From Plantibacter flavus (lineage in GTDB: Bacteria > Actinomycetota > Actinomycetes > Actinomycetales > Microbacteriaceae): DNA of 64,000 bases. Below, in pieces: positions 14,931-51,804 of this stretch; position 1 is the first letter of the stretch; every line of letters begins with the position of its first letter. The translations under genes and the position numbers were made by a program. The notes under the pieces were generated by a model. That model saw nothing but the letters and a program-made list of their open reading frames with translations, searched no databases and was not told the DNA's origin. The stretch covers positions 248,001-312,000 of the forward strand of contig NZ_FXAP01000002.1 in assembly GCF_900177615.1 (NCBI RefSeq). The letters are read 5' to 3'.

Positions 14931-15062
14931 CATCCGGTCCCTGAGACCCGTCATCCGGTCCCTGAGACCCACCATCCGGTCCCTGAGACCCACCATCCGG
15001 TCCCTGAGACCCACAACCGGTCCCCGAGACCCACCAACCGGTCCCTGAGCTTGTCGAAGGGC
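14931..15062. repeat. Decaying tandem repeat, period about 21 bases, six units
   Basis: CATCCGGTCCCTGAGACCCAC repeats at 14931, 14952, 14973 and 14994. Two shorter, divergent units (CAACCGGTCC...) follow at 15014 and 15035. The last unit runs into GAGCTTGTCGAAGG, the core of the dispersed intergenic repeat family of this genome. It fills most of the 221-base gap between the importer operon and the GH3 gene. Confidence 0.75.
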
Positions 15063-25030: not shown

Positions 25031-25365
25031 TCCCTGAGCCTGTCGAAGGGCAGCCCCGCAAGCACCACACGCACTTCGACAAGCTCAGCGACCGAACGAG
25101 GCCCACGATCACGCGCACCGGTCCCTGAGCCTGTCGAAGGGCAGCCCCGCAAGCACCACACGCACTTCGACAAGCTCAGCGACCGAACGAGGCCCACGAT
25201 CACGCGCACCGGTCCCTGAGCCTGTCGAAGGGCAGCCCCGCAAGCACCACACGCACTTCGACAAGCTCAGCGACCGAACGAGGCCCACGATCACGCGCAC
25301 CGGTCCCTGAGCCTGTCGAAGGGCAGCCCGCAAGCACCACACGCACTTCGACAAGCTCAGCGACC
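25031..25365. repeat. Four tandem copies of a 91-base hairpin unit
   Basis: TCCCTGAGCCTGTCGAAGGG recurs at 25031, 25122, 25213 and 25304, exactly 91 bases apart. The first three units are nearly identical; the fourth has lost one C and diverges after GCTCAGCGACCG. Within each unit CTGAGCCTGTCGAAG and CTTCGACAAGCTCAG face each other, so each folds into a long imperfect hairpin. Shorter decayed units precede it at 24950-25030. It lies between the 3' ends of the GH20 gene and the convergent PPTase gene. Near-identity of units suggests recent duplication. Confidence 0.85.
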
Positions 25366-25379
25366 GGACCACGTCCGAC

Positions 25380-26054
25380 TCAGCCGACGCCCTCCCGGAC
25401 GGCCGGGACGATGACGACGCTGCAGAGGTGGGTGCCCACCACCGACCATCGTCCGGCGAAGGTGCGCGGCGCGGTCGGGCCGGCCGGCGCGACGACCCGC
25501 GCATCGAACGACCCACGATCCGGGTGGATCACCACCTCACACGCCGTGTAGTCGACCCATCGGCCGGTGTGCGGGTACCACGCCTTGAAGACGCTCTCCT
25601 TGACGCTCCACAACACGGCGCTCCACGCGACGGTCGGATGGCTCGCGGCGAGTCGCGCGAGCATGGACGCCTCACTCCCGCAGACGATCGTCGCCGCGAC
25701 GGCGGGACGGATGGGCCGGTGCACCTCGACGTCGATCCCGATGGCGCTCGCGACACCGACGTGACCGACGGCTGCGACCGTGAAACCGGTGCAGTGCGAG
25801 AGACTCCCGACGAAGCCGGTCGGCCAGACCGGTTGCCCGCCCTCCCCCGTCGGGATGTCCGCGGAGCGCTGGCCGAGCATCGCGAGCGCCGCCCTGGCAC
25901 AGTCGCGCGCCGAGCGGGATTCGGCGCTGCGACCAGCCGAGGTCGGACGGGCCCGGAACGGCCCGGGTGCGGTGCCGGCGGTTGCCGCGACGACGACACC
26001 CGGCGGCACCTGCATCCGGAGAGCGTCGACCACAGCGGCTGCGGATTCAGCCAC
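25380..26054 (-). CDS. 4'-phosphopantetheinyl transferase (EntD/Sfp superfamily)
   Basis: A 224-residue PPTase. It shows GSLSHCTGFTVAAVG, GIDVEVHRPI (Asp108 and Glu110, Mg2+ ligands) and WSVKESVFKAW (Lys152, Glu153), with the EntD-like subtype features. It transfers phosphopantetheine from coenzyme A to a serine of a carrier protein; the ACP of the PKS in the same operon (Ser1085) is the evident client. GTG at 26054 is chosen because it overlaps the nitroreductase stop by 8 bases; the first ATG, 13 codons later, is the alternative. It is last in the four-gene minus-strand operon. Confidence 0.9.
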   Translation of the reverse strand: MAESAAAVVDALRMQVPPGVVVAATAGTAPGPFRARPTSAGRSAESRSARDCARAALAMLGQRSADIPTGEGGQPVWPTGFVGSLSHCTGFTVAAVGHVGVASAIGIDVEVHRPIRPAVAATIVCGSEASMLARLAASHPTVAWSAVLWSVKESVFKAWYPHTGRWVDYTACEVVIHPDRGSFDARVVAPAGPTAPRTFAGRWSVVGTHLCSVVIVPAVREGVG

Positions 26055-27054
26055 CCGACCGACGCGGGGACGCCACGCGCGCCGTGGGGTCGGAGGCGGG
26101 TATGCCGACCCGGAACCAGGCGACGAGCTGCTCGTCCGGGGCGACCTGCCAGCGTTCGTCGAGCATGGCCCTGGTCTCCGGGCAGTCGAGCGGCGCGCTC
26201 TGGGGATGCACGTACAGGCCGTGACGCTGGAAGCCGAGCCAGAGCCGGGTGAGCAGTCGCCCCGCGGCGAGTTCCTGCTGTGCCCCGGCGGGTCCGACGA
26301 CACCGAGGACGGTGCCGGAGCCCTGGGTCGCGGAAGCCGACATCCGTGCCAACAGCCCCGGCAGCCCGAGCCCGCGAAGCGCACGGAACACCCGCGGGCC
26401 GATCAGCGTCCGCAGGCCGACTCGTTCGACCTTCGACAGCACGAGCATCGCGTCGTTGAGGCCGTCCTCGTCGTACCGCGGATGTCTTGGTGAGAGCCTG
26501 GTCCACTGATCGAGCTCGGCGACGGTCGCCTGCTCGCCGAAGAACCACCGGTTGGCTCGCACGAGGATCGGGCGCGCGTCCCGTGTCGGCATGGAGACGA
26601 GCCGGAAACCCATGCGCTCCGTCTCCACCGCGGCCTCCTGGAGGAGGTCGGGTCCGGGACCGCCGTCCCGCCATCGCCCGCGCCAGACACGTCGTCCACG
26701 GACGTCCGCCGAGGAGAACCTCGTCTGGTAGCCCTCCGGGTGGCGCGAGAACCGGCCGACCTCATCGGTCTCCGCGTCACCGCCGGTCGAGGCCTCGAAG
26801 CCCAGTCCGACACCGGCCGACGCCGCGCAGACGAGGAGCGACTCGACGAACGCCCCGAACGACAGCATCGTGTCGCGTCCTCGCGGATCGCTCGCGCCGA
26901 GGGTGCGAGCGCGATCCCGGCGGAGGACGAGTTCGTCGCCCTGACGGTCCACGCTCCACGGCTGCGTGTTGTGGGCGTTCGCCGCACGAGCCGCCTCGGA
27001 CACGAGCGCCGAGAGGTCGTCATCGCCCGACAGGCCGCTGAGCCGCGCGTCCAT
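26047..27054 (-). CDS. Acg-family nitroreductase-like FMN protein
   Basis: A 335-residue protein. HNTQPW at residues 28-33 is the hallmark FMN-site motif of the Acg/nitroreductase-like family, and RARTLGASDPRGRDTMLSFG follows as in relatives. Acg proteins of mycobacteria bind FMN but some lack normal nitroreductase activity, so a redox role is likely but unproven. Here it sits between the MmpL gene (abutting, no gap) and the PPTase gene, so a tailoring oxidation or reduction of the PKS product is the natural hypothesis. No signal peptide or membrane helix is seen. Confidence 0.8.
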   Translation of the reverse strand: MDARLSGLSGDDDLSALVSEAARAANAHNTQPWSVDRQGDELVLRRDRARTLGASDPRGRDTMLSFGAFVESLLVCAASAGVGLGFEASTGGDAETDEVGRFSRHPEGYQTRFSSADVRGRRVWRGRWRDGGPGPDLLQEAAVETERMGFRLVSMPTRDARPILVRANRWFFGEQATVAELDQWTRLSPRHPRYDEDGLNDAMLVLSKVERVGLRTLIGPRVFRALRGLGLPGLLARMSASATQGSGTVLGVVGPAGAQQELAAGRLLTRLWLGFQRHGLYVHPQSAPLDCPETRAMLDERWQVAPDEQLVAWFRVGIPASDPTARVASPRRSGG

Positions 27055-29211
27055 TCAGCCCTCCGTGATCCCGATGCGACGGTGGATCGCCGCGAGCCAC
27101 CGCGGCGCCCACCAGTTGTATCGTCCGGCGACGCGCATGAAGACCGGGACGAGCACGCCGCGGATCAGGATGGCGTCGATGAGGATCGCGATGCCGGTAC
27201 CGATGCCGAGCATCTTGATGATCGACACCCCGGAGGTCGCCATGGCGAAGAACGACACCGCGAGGATCGCCGCAGCGGCCGTGATGATCGGGCCGCTCGC
27301 GCCGAGCCCGCTGCGCACCGCCTCCGCGAGATCGCCCGTGGCACGGAACCGTTCCTGGATCCGAGCGAGGAGGAACACCTCGTAGTCCATCGAGAGCCCG
27401 AAGGCGATGCAGAACAGCAGGATCGGGATCGAGATGGCGATGGGCGACGGGGTGAAGCCGAGCACGTCCGACAGGTTGCCGTCCTGGAAGAGGAACACGA
27501 TGACGCCCAGGATGCCGACCAGCCCGACCACGTTCAGCACCAGCGCCTTGATCGGCAACAGCACGCTCCCGGTGAACAGGAAGAGGATGATCAGCGTCAT
27601 GAGCGCGATGGCCGCGGCGGCGAACGGCAGACGCGCCGAGATGGAGTCACCGATGTCGATCATCTGCGCCGCGAGGCCACCGACCAGGACGGTCGAGCCG
27701 GCTCCAGGGTCCACCGCGCGGACGTCGCGGACGAGCTCCGAGCCCTCGGGCGAGTACGGGACGACGTCGGTCGCGACCTGCAGCCAGAGCGCCGAACCGT
27801 CGCGGAAGTGCTGCTCCGTCCGCGCATCGGCCGGGACGACGAGGCGTCCGTCGACGAAGCTGCCGAGGGACGTCGTGACGGCCTCGACGCCCGCGATCGA
27901 GGAGAGTTCGGAGGCGTACTCGTCGAGCTCGCGGTCGGTCCCCGCCCAGTCGTCGGTGACGACGGAGACGGCGTCCGCGTCGGCGACGTCGAAGTCGGAC
28001 CGCATGATGTCCGCCACGACACGACTCTCTGCGTCGGCGGGGAGCACTCGTTCGTCGGGCACCCCGAACTCCGCGTGCACGAACGGCGCGGCCATGGCGA
28101 TGAGCAGCGCGATCACGGGCACCGCCAACCACGGACGGCGATACGCGTGGTCACCCACCCGGTACCAGAACCGGCCTTCGGCCCCGGCCGGGCGGCGGGA
28201 GCGCAGACGGCCCCAGTCGATCCGGCGACCCAGGAGGGTGAGGGCTGCGGGCAGCAGGACGACCGCGCCCACCACGGAGCAGGCCACGATGACGAGCCCC
28301 GCGATCGCGAACGAGCGCAGGAAGTACTGGTCGAACAGCATCAGGGTGGCGAGCGCCGCGGCGACGACGACGCCGCTGAACACGATGGTCCGGCCGGTCG
28401 TCCGCCGAGCGATCCGCAACGCCTCCTCGTCGGTGGCTCCGCCCGAGCGTTCGTCCCGATAGCGGGTGAGGAACAGCAGGCAGTAGTCGATGGCGAGTCC
28501 GAGGCCCAACGCGGTGACCAGGTTGACCGCGAACAGGGAGACCGAGGTGACCTGGGCGACCACGTTCAGCAGGCCGAGGGAACCGAGGATCGTGACGCCC
28601 GCCACACCGACGGGCAGCAGCGCGGCCACCACACCGCGGAACGCGAAGAACAGCAGGACGAGGGTGATCGGGATGGCGATCGTCTCCGCGACGACGATGT
28701 CCGTCTCGACCTGCGCGTTCAAGTCGTCGTTGATCCCCGCGATACCGCCGAACCGGACCGTGGCCGACGTGACCTCCTCGGCGATGGCGCCGCGGAGCGC
28801 GGTGGTCGCGCGTTGCACGGTGTCCTCGTCTCCGGCGAGCGCCACGAGCACGACGCCGCGGTCGGTGTCACTCCGCAGCTGCTCCGAGTCGGCGTAGGAG
28901 CCGGTGACGCTGGCGTCGTCCACAGCGTCCACAGCGCCGACGATGTCGTCGAGCGCCTCCCTGCCTGCGGCGCTGTCGAGTCCGTCGGAGACGTCCACGA
29001 CGAGGACGAGTTTCGGGTCGCTGCCGGGGAACCGGTCGACGAGCACCTCGGCCGCGGCCACGGAGTCGGACTGCGGGTCGTCGAACCCGCCCGTCTTGAG
29101 GTTGTCGAGGACGTCGGCCCCCGCGATGCCCGCCACGATCGTGAACACCAGGCCGATCAGGAGCGTGATCACCGCCCGTCGTCTGGGGGTCGTTCTGGAG
29201 TGGTTCGTCAT
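27055..29211 (-). CDS. MmpL/RND-family membrane exporter
   Basis: A 718-residue RND transporter of the MMPL type, with two repeats of one helix, one extracytoplasmic loop and a five-helix bundle. Each bundle carries the proton-relay Asp-Tyr pair: IDYCLLF (242-243) and MDYEVFLL (609-610), followed by LTRYRDE and ARIQERF. Such proteins export lipids, siderophores or polyketides in actinobacteria. The start at 29211 overlaps the PKS stop (ATGA), and the stop abuts the nitroreductase ATG. The tight coupling to the PKS makes the polyketide-derived product its likely cargo. Confidence 0.92.
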   Translation of the reverse strand: MTNHSRTTPRRRAVITLLIGLVFTIVAGIAGADVLDNLKTGGFDDPQSDSVAAAEVLVDRFPGSDPKLVLVVDVSDGLDSAAGREALDDIVGAVDAVDDASVTGSYADSEQLRSDTDRGVVLVALAGDEDTVQRATTALRGAIAEEVTSATVRFGGIAGINDDLNAQVETDIVVAETIAIPITLVLLFFAFRGVVAALLPVGVAGVTILGSLGLLNVVAQVTSVSLFAVNLVTALGLGLAIDYCLLFLTRYRDERSGGATDEEALRIARRTTGRTIVFSGVVVAAALATLMLFDQYFLRSFAIAGLVIVACSVVGAVVLLPAALTLLGRRIDWGRLRSRRPAGAEGRFWYRVGDHAYRRPWLAVPVIALLIAMAAPFVHAEFGVPDERVLPADAESRVVADIMRSDFDVADADAVSVVTDDWAGTDRELDEYASELSSIAGVEAVTTSLGSFVDGRLVVPADARTEQHFRDGSALWLQVATDVVPYSPEGSELVRDVRAVDPGAGSTVLVGGLAAQMIDIGDSISARLPFAAAAIALMTLIILFLFTGSVLLPIKALVLNVVGLVGILGVIVFLFQDGNLSDVLGFTPSPIAISIPILLFCIAFGLSMDYEVFLLARIQERFRATGDLAEAVRSGLGASGPIITAAAAILAVSFFAMATSGVSIIKMLGIGTGIAILIDAILIRGVLVPVFMRVAGRYNWWAPRWLAAIHRRIGITEG

Positions 29212-32200
29212 GCGGATACCTCGATGTCGTGGGTGATGCGGTTGAGTTCGGATGCTGTGATGTCCACGACCCGCTGGATCTGCTCGGCGGTGTGCTCCGC
29301 GGTGATGAAGAAGCGGAGCCGCGCCTGGTCGTCCGGCACGGCCGGGTACAGGATCGGGTTGACGCTGAAGCCGTGGTCGAAGAGCGCAGTCGCCAGGGCG
29401 AGTGCCCGTTCCGAGCCGCCGACGATGCACGGCACGACGGGCGAGTCGGCACTGTCGCCGATGTCGATGCCGGCGGCCCGGGCCGTCTCGCGGAAGCGGT
29501 CGGCGTTCTGCCGCAGGCGACTGAGGCGCTCGGGCTCGTCGCGCATGAGCCGGAGGGCGGCGAGCGACGCGGCCGCGTTCGCCGGGGTGATGCCGACGCT
29601 GTACACGAACCCGGGCACGGAGTACTTGAGGTAGTCGATCGCGGCGGCGGTGCCACCGACGTAGCCGCCGCACCCGGCGAGCGACTTCGACATCGTGCCG
29701 CACCAGAGGTCGATGTCCGAGCGGTCGACCCCGAAGTGTTCGCCGACCCCACCGCCGTTTGCGCCGACCGTCCCGATGCTGTGCGCTTCGTCGACGAGCA
29801 CCAGTGCACCGTGCCGCCGCTTCAGCTCGATGAGCTGCGGGAGCGGTACGAGGTCGCCGTCCATGCTGTAGACGCCCTCCACGACGATGAGGACTCGGCG
29901 GAACCCGCCGCGGATCGCGCCGAGGAGGTCGTCGAGCGCGCTCAGGTCGTTGTGGGGGAAGGACCGCCGGGTGGCTCCGGAGAGTTTCGCCCCCTGGATG
30001 ATGCTGTCGTGCGCGAGGCTGTCGTGGACGATGAGGTCGCCCGGTTCCACCAGGTGCCCGATGAGACTCACGTTCGTCGCGTGGCCGCTCACCAGGGTGA
30101 GCGCGGACTCCACCTGGAGGAGGTCGGCGAGCTCCTGCTCGAGCTCGGCGTGGATCGGTCGCTCACCGGACAGGAACCGACTGGCGGACACCGAGCTGCC
30201 GTATCGGGCGACGGCGTCGGCGATCGTCTCAGCGACCACGGGGTGGCCGGTGACACCGAGGTAGTTGTAGCTCGAGAAGCTCACGAGCTGGGCGTCGCCG
30301 ATCGTCGTCGTCGCGTCGATGATCCCCTCATGGAGCAGGAAGTAGGGGTTGCGGTCCGTCTGCTGCCGGCGTTCCCGCAGGGCGACCGCCTCCGGGAAGC
30401 ACTCGATGCGGGCGTCGGCGTCGGTCCATCGGGTCGGGCGGTCGACCGGCGCCGGGGAAGCGGCAGCCACCGGTTTCGTCTCGACCCGCGGGAGCCGGTG
30501 CTGCGGCTCCTCGGCGAACGGGTGCAGCAGGGAGCCGACGCCGTCGAGCACCTGCTCCACGGTGGGCCTTCCGGCAAAGCGCTCGCCGAGCTGGGCCGGG
30601 GTCGGCAGCGATGGCCACTCGGTGTGCAGCTGGGTGATCAGCTCACGCATCATCAGTGAATCGAATCCGAGCTGCTCGACGAGGTGCATGTCGGGCCGGA
30701 CCAGGTCCAGCGGGAACCCGCTGATGCGCGACACCATGCCGAGGATGACCGCGTCGGATTCCGCACGATGCGACCGGGAGGTTGCGAGGCCCATCCGCGT
30801 GACGACTTCCGCCTGCGGCGAGCCGGGTTCCGTGGACCAACGGAACGCATCGGTCGACGCGGGCGCGTGACCGGCCTGCCCGGAACCCTCGATCAGGCTC
30901 AGCTGGCGGTTCATGAGGGCGAGCAGTCCGGGCAGGTGGTCGACCTGGGCCTCGGCGGCTCGCAGCTGGATCGACGGCTCTGCCGAGGGTCGTCCGGCGA
31001 GCGGGGAGGACGTCAGAACGTTGGGGGCATGGTGCATGGAGTGGGGATCCTGTTCGAGGGGGGTGGGTGGTCGATGCGGCTCGGATGTGGGTACTCGGAG
31101 CGTGGGCGTCGGGTCGGAGGCGTCCGGTCGGACGACCCAGTACGGTTCGGTCGGCAGCGGCGCGATCGGCAGCGCCACACCCGCTGTGCCTGGCGGGAGG
31201 AGCGATGCCAGGTCGAGGTCGGCACCGAGCACCGTCAGCCGACCGACGAGTCGGAGGAAGGTCGCCGCGTCGTCCGGCGCCGACGCGCTGCTCGGGATGA
31301 CCTGCGCGTCGGGCGCGTCGCCCAGGGAGCGCCGGATGGACCCGAGCAGCGCCGAACCCCCACCGATCTGGACGTAGACACCGACGTCGGATACGGACGC
31401 CGACTCGATCGCCTCGCGGAACCGCACCGTGGAGAACACGTTCTCCTCGAGCTGACGACCGAGCTCCTCGCCCGACGCGACCGCGCGGCCCGTCACGGTG
31501 GAGACGAGCTGCACCTGCGGTGCACGAGGTCGGAACCGCGACAGGTCCGCGACGAGGGCCTGGCGGATCGGCTCGAGCAGGGGCGAGTGGAAGCCGGTGG
31601 CGACGCGCAGCGGTTGTGTCGACACCCCGTGCTCGACGCACCGTTGCGTGACGGCGCGCAGGGCCTCGCCCGTTCCACTCACCACCGTCTGCCGGGGATC
31701 GTTGGCGGCCGCGATCCACGCGTCGTCGATGCCGCTGAGGAGCGCTGCGGCATGCTCGGCGTCGCAGCCGAGGGCCGTCATGCCGTCGCCGGGGCGCGTC
31801 GCAGCCGACCGCATGTGGCGTCCGCGGACCGCGGCGAGCCGCACGGCGTCGAGCGCATCGAGCGCGCCCGCCGTCGCCATGGCGGGCAGCTCACCGACGC
31901 TGTGCCCGATGACGAGGTCGGGCTCCACGCCGATCTCGCGCAACAGCGCCACGGTGGCGAGCGCCGTCACCGCGAGCGCGGGTTGGCAGACCTCCGTGGA
32001 CGTGAGACGGTCGACCCCGGAGGGGGTGTCGGCGTCGGCGGCGACGAGCGCCGCGAGCACATCGACCCCGGTCTCGTCGAGCACCGGCTCGTTCAGGCTC
32101 TCGGCCGCTGCACGGAAGGCGGGGAACCGGTCGACGAGGTCCGACTGCATGCGCGGTGTCTGGCTCCCCTGCCCGGGGAAGACGAAGGCGATCCGCCGAG

Positions 32201-33911
32201 CGGCCTGATCGACACGGACACCGGTGCAGACGTCCGCGGAGATCACCCCGGTGGTTCCGTGGGCGAGCTGCTCCACGGCGGCCGACACGCCTGAGATCAG
32301 CTCGGCGGCGGTGCGGCACACGATCGCCAGACGGGTGTTCGCGAGCACCCGAGAGCTCAGGGTCCGTGCGAGGCCGGCGATGGACGGTGCGTCGGCGGCC
32401 TCGAGGACGGCGCGGACCGCACGGAGGTGCTCACCGAGCAGCGTGGGGTCGTCCGCCGAGAACACGAGCAGGTGCGGGGGCGTTCCGTCGGCCGGTCCCC
32501 CGGCTGCACGCCGACGGACTCGACCTGCTCGCGTCGGCGGTGACTCGAGCACCACGTGCGCGTTGGTGCCGCCGAACCCGAACGAGCTGACGCCGATGAG
32601 GCCCAGACCGTCGTCGCCCGGGTCGACGGTGCGGGAGGTGAGCGCCAGGCGGCCGTCGCGGAGGGCCCCGGTGTGCGCCGCGGAACGCAGGTGGGGTTGC
32701 CCGGGGACCACCCGATGCCTCGCCATGAGCGCCGCTTTGACGATGCTGGCGATCCCGGCCGCCGCCATCGTGTGCCCCACGAGCGCCTTCACCGCCGTGA
32801 CCGTGGCGGTCCGGTGCGGCGGTGCCCCGAGACGACGCAGCGCCGCCAGCGATTCCAGCTCGGTGCGGTCGCCCACCGGGGTGGCCGTGCCGTGCGCCTC
32901 GACGACGCCCAGGTCGGCCGGGTCGGCCGCGGCGTCCTCGTAGGCCCGGCGGAGCGCTGCCAGCTGTCCGTCCGTCGTCGGCGTCATCGGCCCTTCGGCC
33001 CGGCCGTCGTTGGACACCCCGGAGCCGCGGATGACCGCGTAGACGTCGTCGTGGTCGTCGATGGCGGCCTCGAGCGGTTTGACGACGATCATGCCGACGC
33101 CCTCTCCGAGGAGGAATCCGTCGGCATCGCCGTCGAACGGTCGGCACACCCCGCTCCGTGACAGCGCACCGATCCGGGAGAAGGCGACCATCGCATCCGG
33201 GACGAGGCTCAGGTTGACACCGCCGACGAGCGCCGCCGAGCACTGTCCGGACCGGATGGCGGCGACCGCCTGGTGGAGCGCGACGAGGCTGCTGGAGCAT
33301 GCGGCGTCGACCGCGAAGCTCGGGCCACCGAGGTCGAGCGTGCTGCTCACCAGCGCCGGCCCCATGTTCGGCAGGCATCCCGGCATCGAGAACGCGTGGA
33401 ACGGGCGCACACCGGCGACGCGCGCGCCCATCGCCGCCGTGAGGTCGGGACCGGCGTGTTCCGCGTGGACCGAGTCGTCGCCGAGGAGTTGCGCCCGGAT
33501 GCGGAGCGAGGTGAGTTCACGGTAGTCGTTCGCGGCCATCCCGACGAAGACGCCGATGGACGACCGGTCGATGCGACGACGTTCGAACCCGGCGTCGATC
33601 CAGGCGGCTCGCGCAGCCCCGAGGAGCAGGCGATGTTGCGGGTCCATCGCGTGCGCCCGACTGGGCGGGATGCGGAAGTGCCGCGCGGCGAACTGCTCGA
33701 CGTCGTCGATGAAGGAGCCCTGGTCGGAGTAGGCGTGGTGCACCGCTCGTGGGTCGTGGGGCGCGAAGAAGGTGGCGTGGTCCCATCTCGACCTGGGGAC
33801 GACGGAGCCGCTGCGCCGGGCTGTCAGGATGTTGCGCCAGTACTGGTGTGCGTCTGCCGCGCCACCGAAGCGGGCGGACAGGCCGACGATGGCGAGTGGT
33901 CGAACGGGCAC
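29208..33911 (-). CDS. Hybrid type I polyketide synthase: KS-AT-ACP-alpha-oxoamine synthase
   Basis: A 1567-residue single-module megasynthase. KS (1-455): Cys205 in VDAACSSSLV, His340 in EAHGTATPVGD, His380 in KALVGHTMAAAG. AT (about 572-880): FVFPGQGSQTPRM, Ser671 in GHSVGE, His775 in ATGFHSPLLEP. ACP (about 1055-1128): Ser1085 in LGFDSLMMREL. The C-terminal 400 residues are a PLP alpha-oxoamine synthase like 8-amino-7-oxononanoate synthase or serine palmitoyltransferase, with Asp1374 in VDEAHSIG and the Schiff-base Lys1409 in GTMSKSLAGCGGYVGG. No KR, DH, ER or TE is present. Expected chemistry: one malonyl-type extension, then decarboxylative condensation with an amino acid that releases an alpha-amino ketone. 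GTG 33911 has GGAGG 10 bases upstream; ATG 33968 is the alternative. It is first in the operon. Confidence 0.93.
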   Translation of the reverse strand: MPVRPLAIVGLSARFGGAADAHQYWRNILTARRSGSVVPRSRWDHATFFAPHDPRAVHHAYSDQGSFIDDVEQFAARHFRIPPSRAHAMDPQHRLLLGAARAAWIDAGFERRRIDRSSIGVFVGMAANDYRELTSLRIRAQLLGDDSVHAEHAGPDLTAAMGARVAGVRPFHAFSMPGCLPNMGPALVSSTLDLGGPSFAVDAACSSSLVALHQAVAAIRSGQCSAALVGGVNLSLVPDAMVAFSRIGALSRSGVCRPFDGDADGFLLGEGVGMIVVKPLEAAIDDHDDVYAVIRGSGVSNDGRAEGPMTPTTDGQLAALRRAYEDAAADPADLGVVEAHGTATPVGDRTELESLAALRRLGAPPHRTATVTAVKALVGHTMAAAGIASIVKAALMARHRVVPGQPHLRSAAHTGALRDGRLALTSRTVDPGDDGLGLIGVSSFGFGGTNAHVVLESPPTRAGRVRRRAAGGPADGTPPHLLVFSADDPTLLGEHLRAVRAVLEAADAPSIAGLARTLSSRVLANTRLAIVCRTAAELISGVSAAVEQLAHGTTGVISADVCTGVRVDQAARRIAFVFPGQGSQTPRMQSDLVDRFPAFRAAAESLNEPVLDETGVDVLAALVAADADTPSGVDRLTSTEVCQPALAVTALATVALLREIGVEPDLVIGHSVGELPAMATAGALDALDAVRLAAVRGRHMRSAATRPGDGMTALGCDAEHAAALLSGIDDAWIAAANDPRQTVVSGTGEALRAVTQRCVEHGVSTQPLRVATGFHSPLLEPIRQALVADLSRFRPRAPQVQLVSTVTGRAVASGEELGRQLEENVFSTVRFREAIESASVSDVGVYVQIGGGSALLGSIRRSLGDAPDAQVIPSSASAPDDAATFLRLVGRLTVLGADLDLASLLPPGTAGVALPIAPLPTEPYWVVRPDASDPTPTLRVPTSEPHRPPTPLEQDPHSMHHAPNVLTSSPLAGRPSAEPSIQLRAAEAQVDHLPGLLALMNRQLSLIEGSGQAGHAPASTDAFRWSTEPGSPQAEVVTRMGLATSRSHRAESDAVILGMVSRISGFPLDLVRPDMHLVEQLGFDSLMMRELITQLHTEWPSLPTPAQLGERFAGRPTVEQVLDGVGSLLHPFAEEPQHRLPRVETKPVAAASPAPVDRPTRWTDADARIECFPEAVALRERRQQTDRNPYFLLHEGIIDATTTIGDAQLVSFSSYNYLGVTGHPVVAETIADAVARYGSSVSASRFLSGERPIHAELEQELADLLQVESALTLVSGHATNVSLIGHLVEPGDLIVHDSLAHDSIIQGAKLSGATRRSFPHNDLSALDDLLGAIRGGFRRVLIVVEGVYSMDGDLVPLPQLIELKRRHGALVLVDEAHSIGTVGANGGGVGEHFGVDRSDIDLWCGTMSKSLAGCGGYVGGTAAAIDYLKYSVPGFVYSVGITPANAAASLAALRLMRDEPERLSRLRQNADRFRETARAAGIDIGDSADSPVVPCIVGGSERALALATALFDHGFSVNPILYPAVPDDQARLRFFITAEHTAEQIQRVVDITASELNRITHDIEVSA

Positions 33912-51659: not shown

Positions 51660-51804
51660 ACCCTTCGACAATCGGTTCCTGCCCTTCGACAAGCCCTGCC
51701 CTTCGACAAGCTCAGGGACCGGGTGGTGAAGGGCAGGGACCGGGTGGTGAAGGGCAGGGACCGGCAGGTGAAGGGCAGGGACCGGCAGGTGAAGGGCATG
51801 GACC
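51660..51804. repeat. Dispersed repeat plus 21-base tandem array
   Basis: CCCTTCGACAA occurs three times (near 51660, 51682 and 51699), the last leading into the CTTCGACAAGCTCAGGGACCGG hairpin core. From 51721 to 51804 a 21-base unit, GGGTGGTGAAGGGCAGGGACC, repeats four times with G/C changes. It ends 10 bases before the end of the M13 peptidase gene. The remainder of the 439-base gap (51376-51659) holds no recognisable gene. Confidence 0.75.

Follow-up and report, generated by a model that had tools for sequence, protein, structure and literature searches.

The stretch analysed here (the window) comprises 64,000 nucleotides of a Plantibacter flavus contig (C2; genome of 4.3 Mb) and carries, on its minus strand, a four-gene operon built around a polyketide synthase (PKS) that ends in an alpha-oxoamine synthase (AOS) domain. 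Gene coordinates together with Pfam bear out what had been predicted from the letters alone, namely a four-gene minus-strand unit whose megasynthase has the order ketosynthase (KS), acyltransferase (AT), acyl carrier protein (ACP) and AOS, and which includes its own exporter (MMPL matched twice) and phosphopantetheinyl transferase (PPTase; 4PPT_N and ACPS, both above the Pfam cut-off). The features are as follows.

25380-33911, minus strand: operon of four genes, neighbours overlapping or abutting
29208..33911, minus strand: KS-AT-ACP-AOS megasynthase (PKS-AOS), 1567 amino acids (aa), GTG start with GGAGG upstream
32394..33902, minus strand: KS domain by Pfam, residues 4-408 plus KS extension 416-506 (4-506 together)
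31221..32186, minus strand: AT domain by Pfam, residues 576-897, with GHSVGE and TGFHS motifs
30492..30794, minus strand: ACP segment, LGFDSL, Ser1085
29211..30386, minus strand: AOS domain, residues 1209-1550 by Pfam, pyridoxal phosphate (PLP) Lys1409
27055..29211, minus strand: MmpL/RND-type exporter, 718 aa, ATGA overlap with the PKS stop, two Pfam MMPL domains that identify it as an MMPL exporter
26047..27054, minus strand: Acg-like flavin mononucleotide (FMN) protein of the nitroreductase superfamily, 335 aa, TGAATG junction with MmpL
25380..26054, minus strand: Sfp/PptT-type PPTase, 224 aa, GTG start overlapping the Acg stop

The PKS-AOS, which might alternatively start at an in-frame ATG (33968), retains every residue to which we assign a catalytic role from knowledge of the respective families. 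As the original prediction had it, these can be read directly from the sequence and are intact in the KS (C205/H340/K375/H380), AT (S671/R696/H775), ACP (S1085) and AOS (H1277/D1374/H1377/K1409); the AT motifs are presumably of the malonyl type. Also in line with that prediction, no ketoreductase, dehydratase, enoylreductase or thioesterase is among the Pfam families matched by the 1567-aa protein, in which Pfam likewise finds no AMP-ligase and no extra N-terminal ACP, the chain starting with its KS. Within the whole protein the ACP scores under the Pfam cut-off (19.8 vs 20.8 bits), the segment scanned by itself passes (24.7 bits), and PP-binding is matched by 14 of the 19 ACP segments of the family described below. 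The AOS domain, an aminotransferase class I/II domain in Pfam, has the PLP Lys, the Asp and the His in a sequence resembling 8-amino-7-oxononanoate synthase and serine palmitoyltransferase (SPT); by sequence it belongs to the alpha-oxoamine synthase superfamily and is predicted to catalyse decarboxylative condensation. Release by off-loading through this PLP domain, as first proposed, still seems the likely route.

Three known systems frame what such an enzyme might make. RedL of undecylprodiginine-producing Streptomyces extends a fatty chain with one malonyl unit and releases it through its AOS, which with glycine gives 4-keto-2-undecylpyrroline (PMC11188435, PMC12654105). PigH/RedN uses serine to form 4-hydroxy-2,2'-bipyrrole-5-methanol (HBM), which PigM/RedV oxidises to the aldehyde (PMC11188435, PMC12654105, PMC6667630). 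PfSgaAB of P. fluorescens MYb115 makes sphinganines, PfSgaB being a proven serine palmitoyltransferase that sits beside a PKS and strongly prefers serine over alanine and glycine (PMC12134224). With RedL, which we identify by architecture, the operon PKS-AOS shares the KS-AT-ACP-AOS order in one chain and the lack of reductive domains, so that it corresponds to the C-terminal part of an AMP-ligase-containing PKS-AOS. It differs in having neither the N-terminal AMP-ligase nor the extra ACP (both present in L109), in a KS clade that leaves the RedL KS outside, in an AOS of another clade without residues of the glycine-using RedL type, and in its exporter, as no MmpL match was found in the RedL loci L109-L111. 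The likeness to PigH/RedN and PigM/RedV is one of reaction logic, an AOS joining a beta-ketothioester to serine with later oxidation of the resulting hydroxypyrrole-methanol (PMC6667630, PMC11188435); there the KS (PigJ/RedX) is a separate protein, the starter is pyrrolyl and the RedN AOS lies far from that of the operon in our tree. PigH, the HBM synthase, is the best PDB match of the 19-row family ACP profile (5y08, E 7.2e-10; 57 matches).

Taking these analogies together, we tentatively read the operon as a self-contained, probably laterally acquired unit for an exported N-heterocyclic lipid of the alkyl-hydroxypyrrole kind. The PPTase would arm the ACP, the KS would take up an acyl chain, most likely a fatty acyl-ACP supplied by the type II fatty acid synthase of the cell, and the AT, judging from its motifs, would load malonyl. 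One decarboxylative condensation would then leave a beta-ketoacyl-ACP, as expected because there is no reductive domain, and no enzyme of the operon would reduce it. The AOS would condense this thioester with an amino acid, serine being favoured, to release the equivalent of an alpha-amino 1,3-diketone, and ring closure would give a 4-keto-pyrroline/3-hydroxypyrrole with an alkyl chain and, if serine is used, also a hydroxymethyl group. The Acg-type flavoprotein might oxidise the ring or the carbinol, as RedV/PigM do on HBM, so that the MmpL would export an alkyl hydroxypyrrole bearing a hydroxymethyl or formyl group. The open amino ketone or sphingoid base of the original prediction is thus not the best expectation, since the known AOS reactions on unreduced beta-ketothioesters, those of RedL and PigH/RedN, cyclise (PMC11188435, PMC6667630).

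For the Acg-like protein the first reading stands as regards its FMN-family identity and had offered no role. Against NCBIfam NF047509 it scores 129.9 bits, under the curated cut-off of 199, and against PF00881 (Nitroreductase) 28.5, above the cut-off of 23.5; its sole PDB profile match at E 0.01 is Acg itself (2ymv). A presumed RedV lies beside a PPTase-like gene in all three prodiginine-like clusters that we read (among 7 RedL-like matches), much as both genes lie side by side in the operon. RedL, RedN, RedU and RedV were named in these loci by architecture and neighbourhood, with RedV taken to adjoin RedU in the gene order, and the PPTase-like genes are weak tblastn matches with open frames. 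The presumed RedV aligns with the operon Acg family (hhalign 97.7%, E 2.4e-12) and with NF047509 (E 2.5e-28 to 3.8e-33, all below the model cut-off). We rejected the notion that RedV is the orthologue of the operon Acg; at the sequence level, the latter is a distant relative of the presumed RedV, a hydroxymethylpyrrole oxidase. By description rather than sequence, two further systems bear comparison: TyzC, a flavin-dependent oxidase of the nitroreductase superfamily that tailors an amino-acid lipid, its substrate being an N-acyl tyrosine (PMC10404671), and MmpL7-PpsE of M. tuberculosis, where a lipid is handled by a paired PKS and MmpL exporter, a different PKS system for which the abstract names no AOS (PMC1238737).

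Full-length PKS-AOS is found in five of seven Plantibacter genomes, and the PPTase in exactly the same five; orthologous loci include those of Plantibacter sp. ME-Dv--P-122b (89% identity) and Plantibacter sp. VKM Ac-1784 (94%). The operon is flanked by a hexosaminidase gene and a dienelactone hydrolase gene. In G004 and G005 these two adjoin each other, their aligned ends being ~190 and ~150 bases apart, respectively, and this arrangement is an empty site. Across the sampled family (f1), which we take to be Microbacteriaceae, the AOS alignment search at E 1e-105 reached 5 of 299 genomes, all Plantibacter (one of 85 genera), and a PPTase search at E 1e-3 gave matches in 6 of 120 members, weak ones in three (E about 3e-4 to 6e-4). 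Lateral gain of the operon is probably a better account than repeated loss and, because most family members seem to have no PPTase, we infer that it was carried along.

Ratios of nonsynonymous to synonymous substitution (dN/dS) between the window and three other Plantibacter (G001, G003, G006; G002 left out) are 0.055-0.11 for the AOS, 0.15-0.19 for MmpL and KS, 0.24-0.41 for the AT, 0.32-0.39 for Acg and 0.38-0.63 for the PPTase, with 0.03-0.11 in three flanking genes for comparison. The linker plus ACP (window 30387-31090) reaches 1.0-1.8 next to an AOS that is nearly frozen. The operon genes are real and, with the exception of this stretch, under purifying selection, which is strongest in the AOS. 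Reading frames of PKS and PPTase are open in all five carriers, and MmpL and Acg give near end-to-end matches in the other four.

Relatives outside Plantibacter fall into several classes. Searched against 72,556 plasmid records, the PKS matched 660 at E 1e-40 and two over 80% of its length, both linear plasmids of S. anthocyanicus. Their PKS-AOS (OG208_RS01555 product, 42% identity over 99% of its length) lies beside an MMPL gene (54%) that is transcribed divergently, together with the Acg homologue (45%), a 'hypothetical' protein of 336 aa, and a PPTase is not among the annotated genes of that stretch. In genus g91 (presumed Streptomyces), an Acg profile at E 1e-30 found 2 of 295 genomes, in both of which PKS-AOS and MmpL adjoin the Acg gene and the locus continues with an IclR regulator, a discrete ACP and a FabF-like KS. 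We define class A by the joint occurrence of PKS-AOS, MmpL and Acg in Plantibacter, on the S. anthocyanicus plasmids and in these two presumed Streptomyces; Plantibacter has the three genes together and shares one MmpL clade. Sequence does not fix the primer, for which the extra ACP and FabF-like KS in the loci of these two genomes point to a fatty chain; FabF-like and FabD-like frames are seen (by match and motif) in the window genome, and Plantibacter would draw the primer from its own type II synthase. At E 1e-25 the Acg profile found 3 of 346 phylum genomes (G000, G328, G323). About 19 kb read around each Acg gene of G328 and G323 held no PKS match, and the idea that Acg marks PKS-AOS was rejected on this ground.

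An AOS profile at E 1e-80 matched 44 of 199 presumed Streptomyces genomes, by score one of class A, 12 of class B (621-648 bits), 16 of class C (547-580) and 7 RedL-like (473-491 bits), each of these seven with a second, RedN-like match; the remainder were weaker. Class B combines KS-AT-ACP-AOS with an upstream MmpL in seven of the eight loci read and a downstream PPTase likewise in seven, none being found among the two neighbours tested at L100. A class B relative, L097 (G479), has only ACP-AOS and PPTase, with KS, AT and MmpL unmatched. Class C (L103-L108) has KS, ACP and AOS without an AT match in all six loci read (Pfam on one), its proteins measuring about 1,120-1,180 aa; at L108 a nitroreductase-family gene lies about 5.7 kb away. 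Among the 346 phylum genomes, 23 match the AOS profile at E 1e-90 and only G000 and G358 exceed 600 bits. In G358 (L112), an acyl-AMP ligase and an ACP directly precede the KS-AT-ACP-AOS. These genes stand within a histidine/tryptophan gene run, two His_biosynth genes on one side and PRA-CH, chorismate-binding, IGPS and PALP genes on the other. Plasmid p3 of Planktothrix agardhii (L030) encodes a long PKS fused to an AOS, surrounded by acyl-AMP ligase and glycosyltransferase-39 genes. Judged by sequence, then, the PKS-AOS operon belongs to a wider family, of which (presumed) Streptomyces hold several classes.

In an AOS tree of 71 rows, which includes six RedL rows from the 7 RedL-like matches and to which PfSgaB itself does not belong, classes A, B, C and G358 (33 rows) form one clade (100/95). 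It is sister to the SgaB-like/Planktothrix AOS (97/90), with RedL outside (99/96), and within it Plantibacter stands beside G358 at weak support (84/79), apart from Streptomyces class A. The KS tree (29 rows) unites A, B and C at 100/100, with Plantibacter branching outside the Streptomyces members of this group (87/94), and leaves out the RedL, SgaA-like, Planktothrix and G358 KSs. That the class A PKSs form one clade is borne out by neither tree. Among MmpLs (20 rows), Plantibacter and Streptomyces class A make a 100/100 clade; class B forms another (100/100) that is closer to generic MMPLs (86/84). A single lineage for class A and B MmpLs was rejected for this reason, the support for the generic MMPLs being moderate, and pairing of MmpL with PKS-AOS may have arisen twice. 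Since the AOS and KS trees do not join class A, its basis is shared gene content together with the MmpL tree, and of the three trees only that of MmpL gives Plantibacter a firm link with the Streptomyces members. On these trees the PKS lineages are older or reshuffled; a former view, that PKS and MmpL travelled together, has been withdrawn, with no bearing on the proposed chemistry.

As to the amino acid, we assume that AOS position 1244 is the site like Thr83 of 5-aminolevulinate synthase. Residues 1244-1245 read 'SR' in Plantibacter, as in all five SgaB-like rows, SPT 3A2B and the one RedN row shown, and Ser occupies 1244 likewise in the class B, class C and G358 rows shown. RedL has 'TP' in three of three rows, and a paralogue of the same genome, which we name KBL-like, has 'VR'. 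This argument is suggestive only.

Several observations weigh against an alkyl-hydroxypyrrole product. The Streptomyces class A AOS (L023, L039, L040) have Ala at 1244, and the case for a particular amino acid is weak, serine as well as the HBM-oxidase role having been carried over from homologues. It takes the 19-row profile to obtain the ACP match to PigH: queried by itself, the window ACP finds nothing in the PDB below E 0.1, and PigH then ranks 11th of 15. Similarly, the operon Acg profile scores the Acg of G328 and G323 far better (E 4e-74 and 7e-30) than the presumed RedV, which it finds at only E 6e-11 and 1e-10 without reaching the L140 copy, and no Acg gene was found in the eight class B loci read. 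The Plantibacter operon has neither a loading domain nor an adjacent ACP/KS, and the acyl-AMP ligase plus ACP locus of G358 speaks for the AOS only, as the G358 KS falls outside the family KS clade. Finally, neither the AOS nor the KS tree brings Plantibacter together with Streptomyces class A.

Other products deserve consideration. One, partly foreseen by the original prediction, is an SgaAB-like sphingoid pathway in which a saturated long acyl chain on the ACP is condensed with serine by the AOS into a 3-ketosphinganine-like lipid, with reduction following elsewhere. What keeps this idea alive is that the operon AOS is sister to, and not inside, a clade of AOS encoded beside long PKS genes resembling that of PfSgaAB; the sphinganine products of PfSgaAB and its proven palmitoyltransferase were noted above (PMC12134224). 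The AOS of five such loci, 49-54% identical to that of the operon, form the nearest clade outside the family, both systems pair PKS with AOS, as SgaA/SgaB do for amino lipids, and an MmpL would suit a lipid product. We still consider it unlikely: SgaAB-like loci have a separate AOS gene and a PKS gene of about 2,500 codons in the annotated loci, whereas the operon PKS has no reductive domain; a short-chain dehydrogenase/reductase gene is annotated in four of four annotated loci and absent from the operon; MMPL or Acg-like genes are not named in the annotation of those four; and the operon KS, being intact and conserved, is probably in use. Equally doubtful is a short-chain product, where the KS would be primed by acetyl-, propionyl- or aromatic acyl-CoA to yield a small signal molecule, either a hydroxypyrrole or an amino diketone. 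In its favour, the operon has no dedicated loading domain or acyl-AMP ligase, and PigH/RedN applies the same AOS logic to a non-fatty pyrrolyl starter (PMC6667630), but a known MmpL-PKS pair, MmpL7-PpsE, serves a lipid (PMC1238737) and the two class A relatives encode an ACP and a FabF-like KS themselves. An iterative, non-reducing KS-AT whose polyketone is off-loaded by the AOS, or a KS that only transacylates, is a poorer prospect still; the number of rounds is not fixed by sequence, but RedL, of the same domain order, extends once (PMC11188435) and the Cys-His-His of the KS is intact. A silent or decaying acquisition without product, to which the dN/dS values of PPTase and linker plus ACP and the absence of the operon from two of seven Plantibacter might point, is highly improbable given the constraint on the AOS and the preserved frames in all carriers.

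Two features beside the operon may be recorded. A unit of 90-91 bases (TTCGACAAGCTCAG at 25075, 25166, 25257 and 25347) stands in four tandem copies at window 25060-25375, immediately downstream of the PPTase and with the hexosaminidase gene on the other side; the 14-base core of the repeat recurs at 51702 and, inverted, at 15045. A plus-strand open frame of 964 codons (26740-29634) opposite MmpL and Acg resembles a high-GC shadow frame and is probably no gene.

Neither the operon nor its product was found reported in the open-licence PMC literature, and from a Plantibacter isolate only a PKS-I PCR product was obtained (PMC9319460). KS-AT-ACP-AOS chains (RedL) and lipids made by PKS plus AOS (SgaAB) are already known; what is new, as far as our searches reach, is a stand-alone class with its own KS clade, recurrent pairing with MmpL, an Acg partner and the Plantibacter island. 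More broadly, and less probably than the alkyl-hydroxypyrrole reading of the Plantibacter operon itself, a widespread and uncharacterised actinobacterial family of stand-alone KS-AT-ACP-AOS proteins, recurrently paired with two MmpL lineages, might make exported alkyl-3-hydroxypyrrole-2-methanol/-carbaldehyde lipids ('half-prodiginines'), the Plantibacter version, with PPTase and RedV-like oxidase, being the most portable. The predicted class of exported, amino-acid-derived lipids would come from a four-gene unit of 8.5 kb, small enough to be expressed whole, and our reading would connect MmpL exporters and Acg, an orphan family of flavoproteins, with a particular chemistry. Since the same logic would apply to two further presumed Streptomyces classes (12 and 16 of 199 genomes by score), one assay may help to annotate many clusters.

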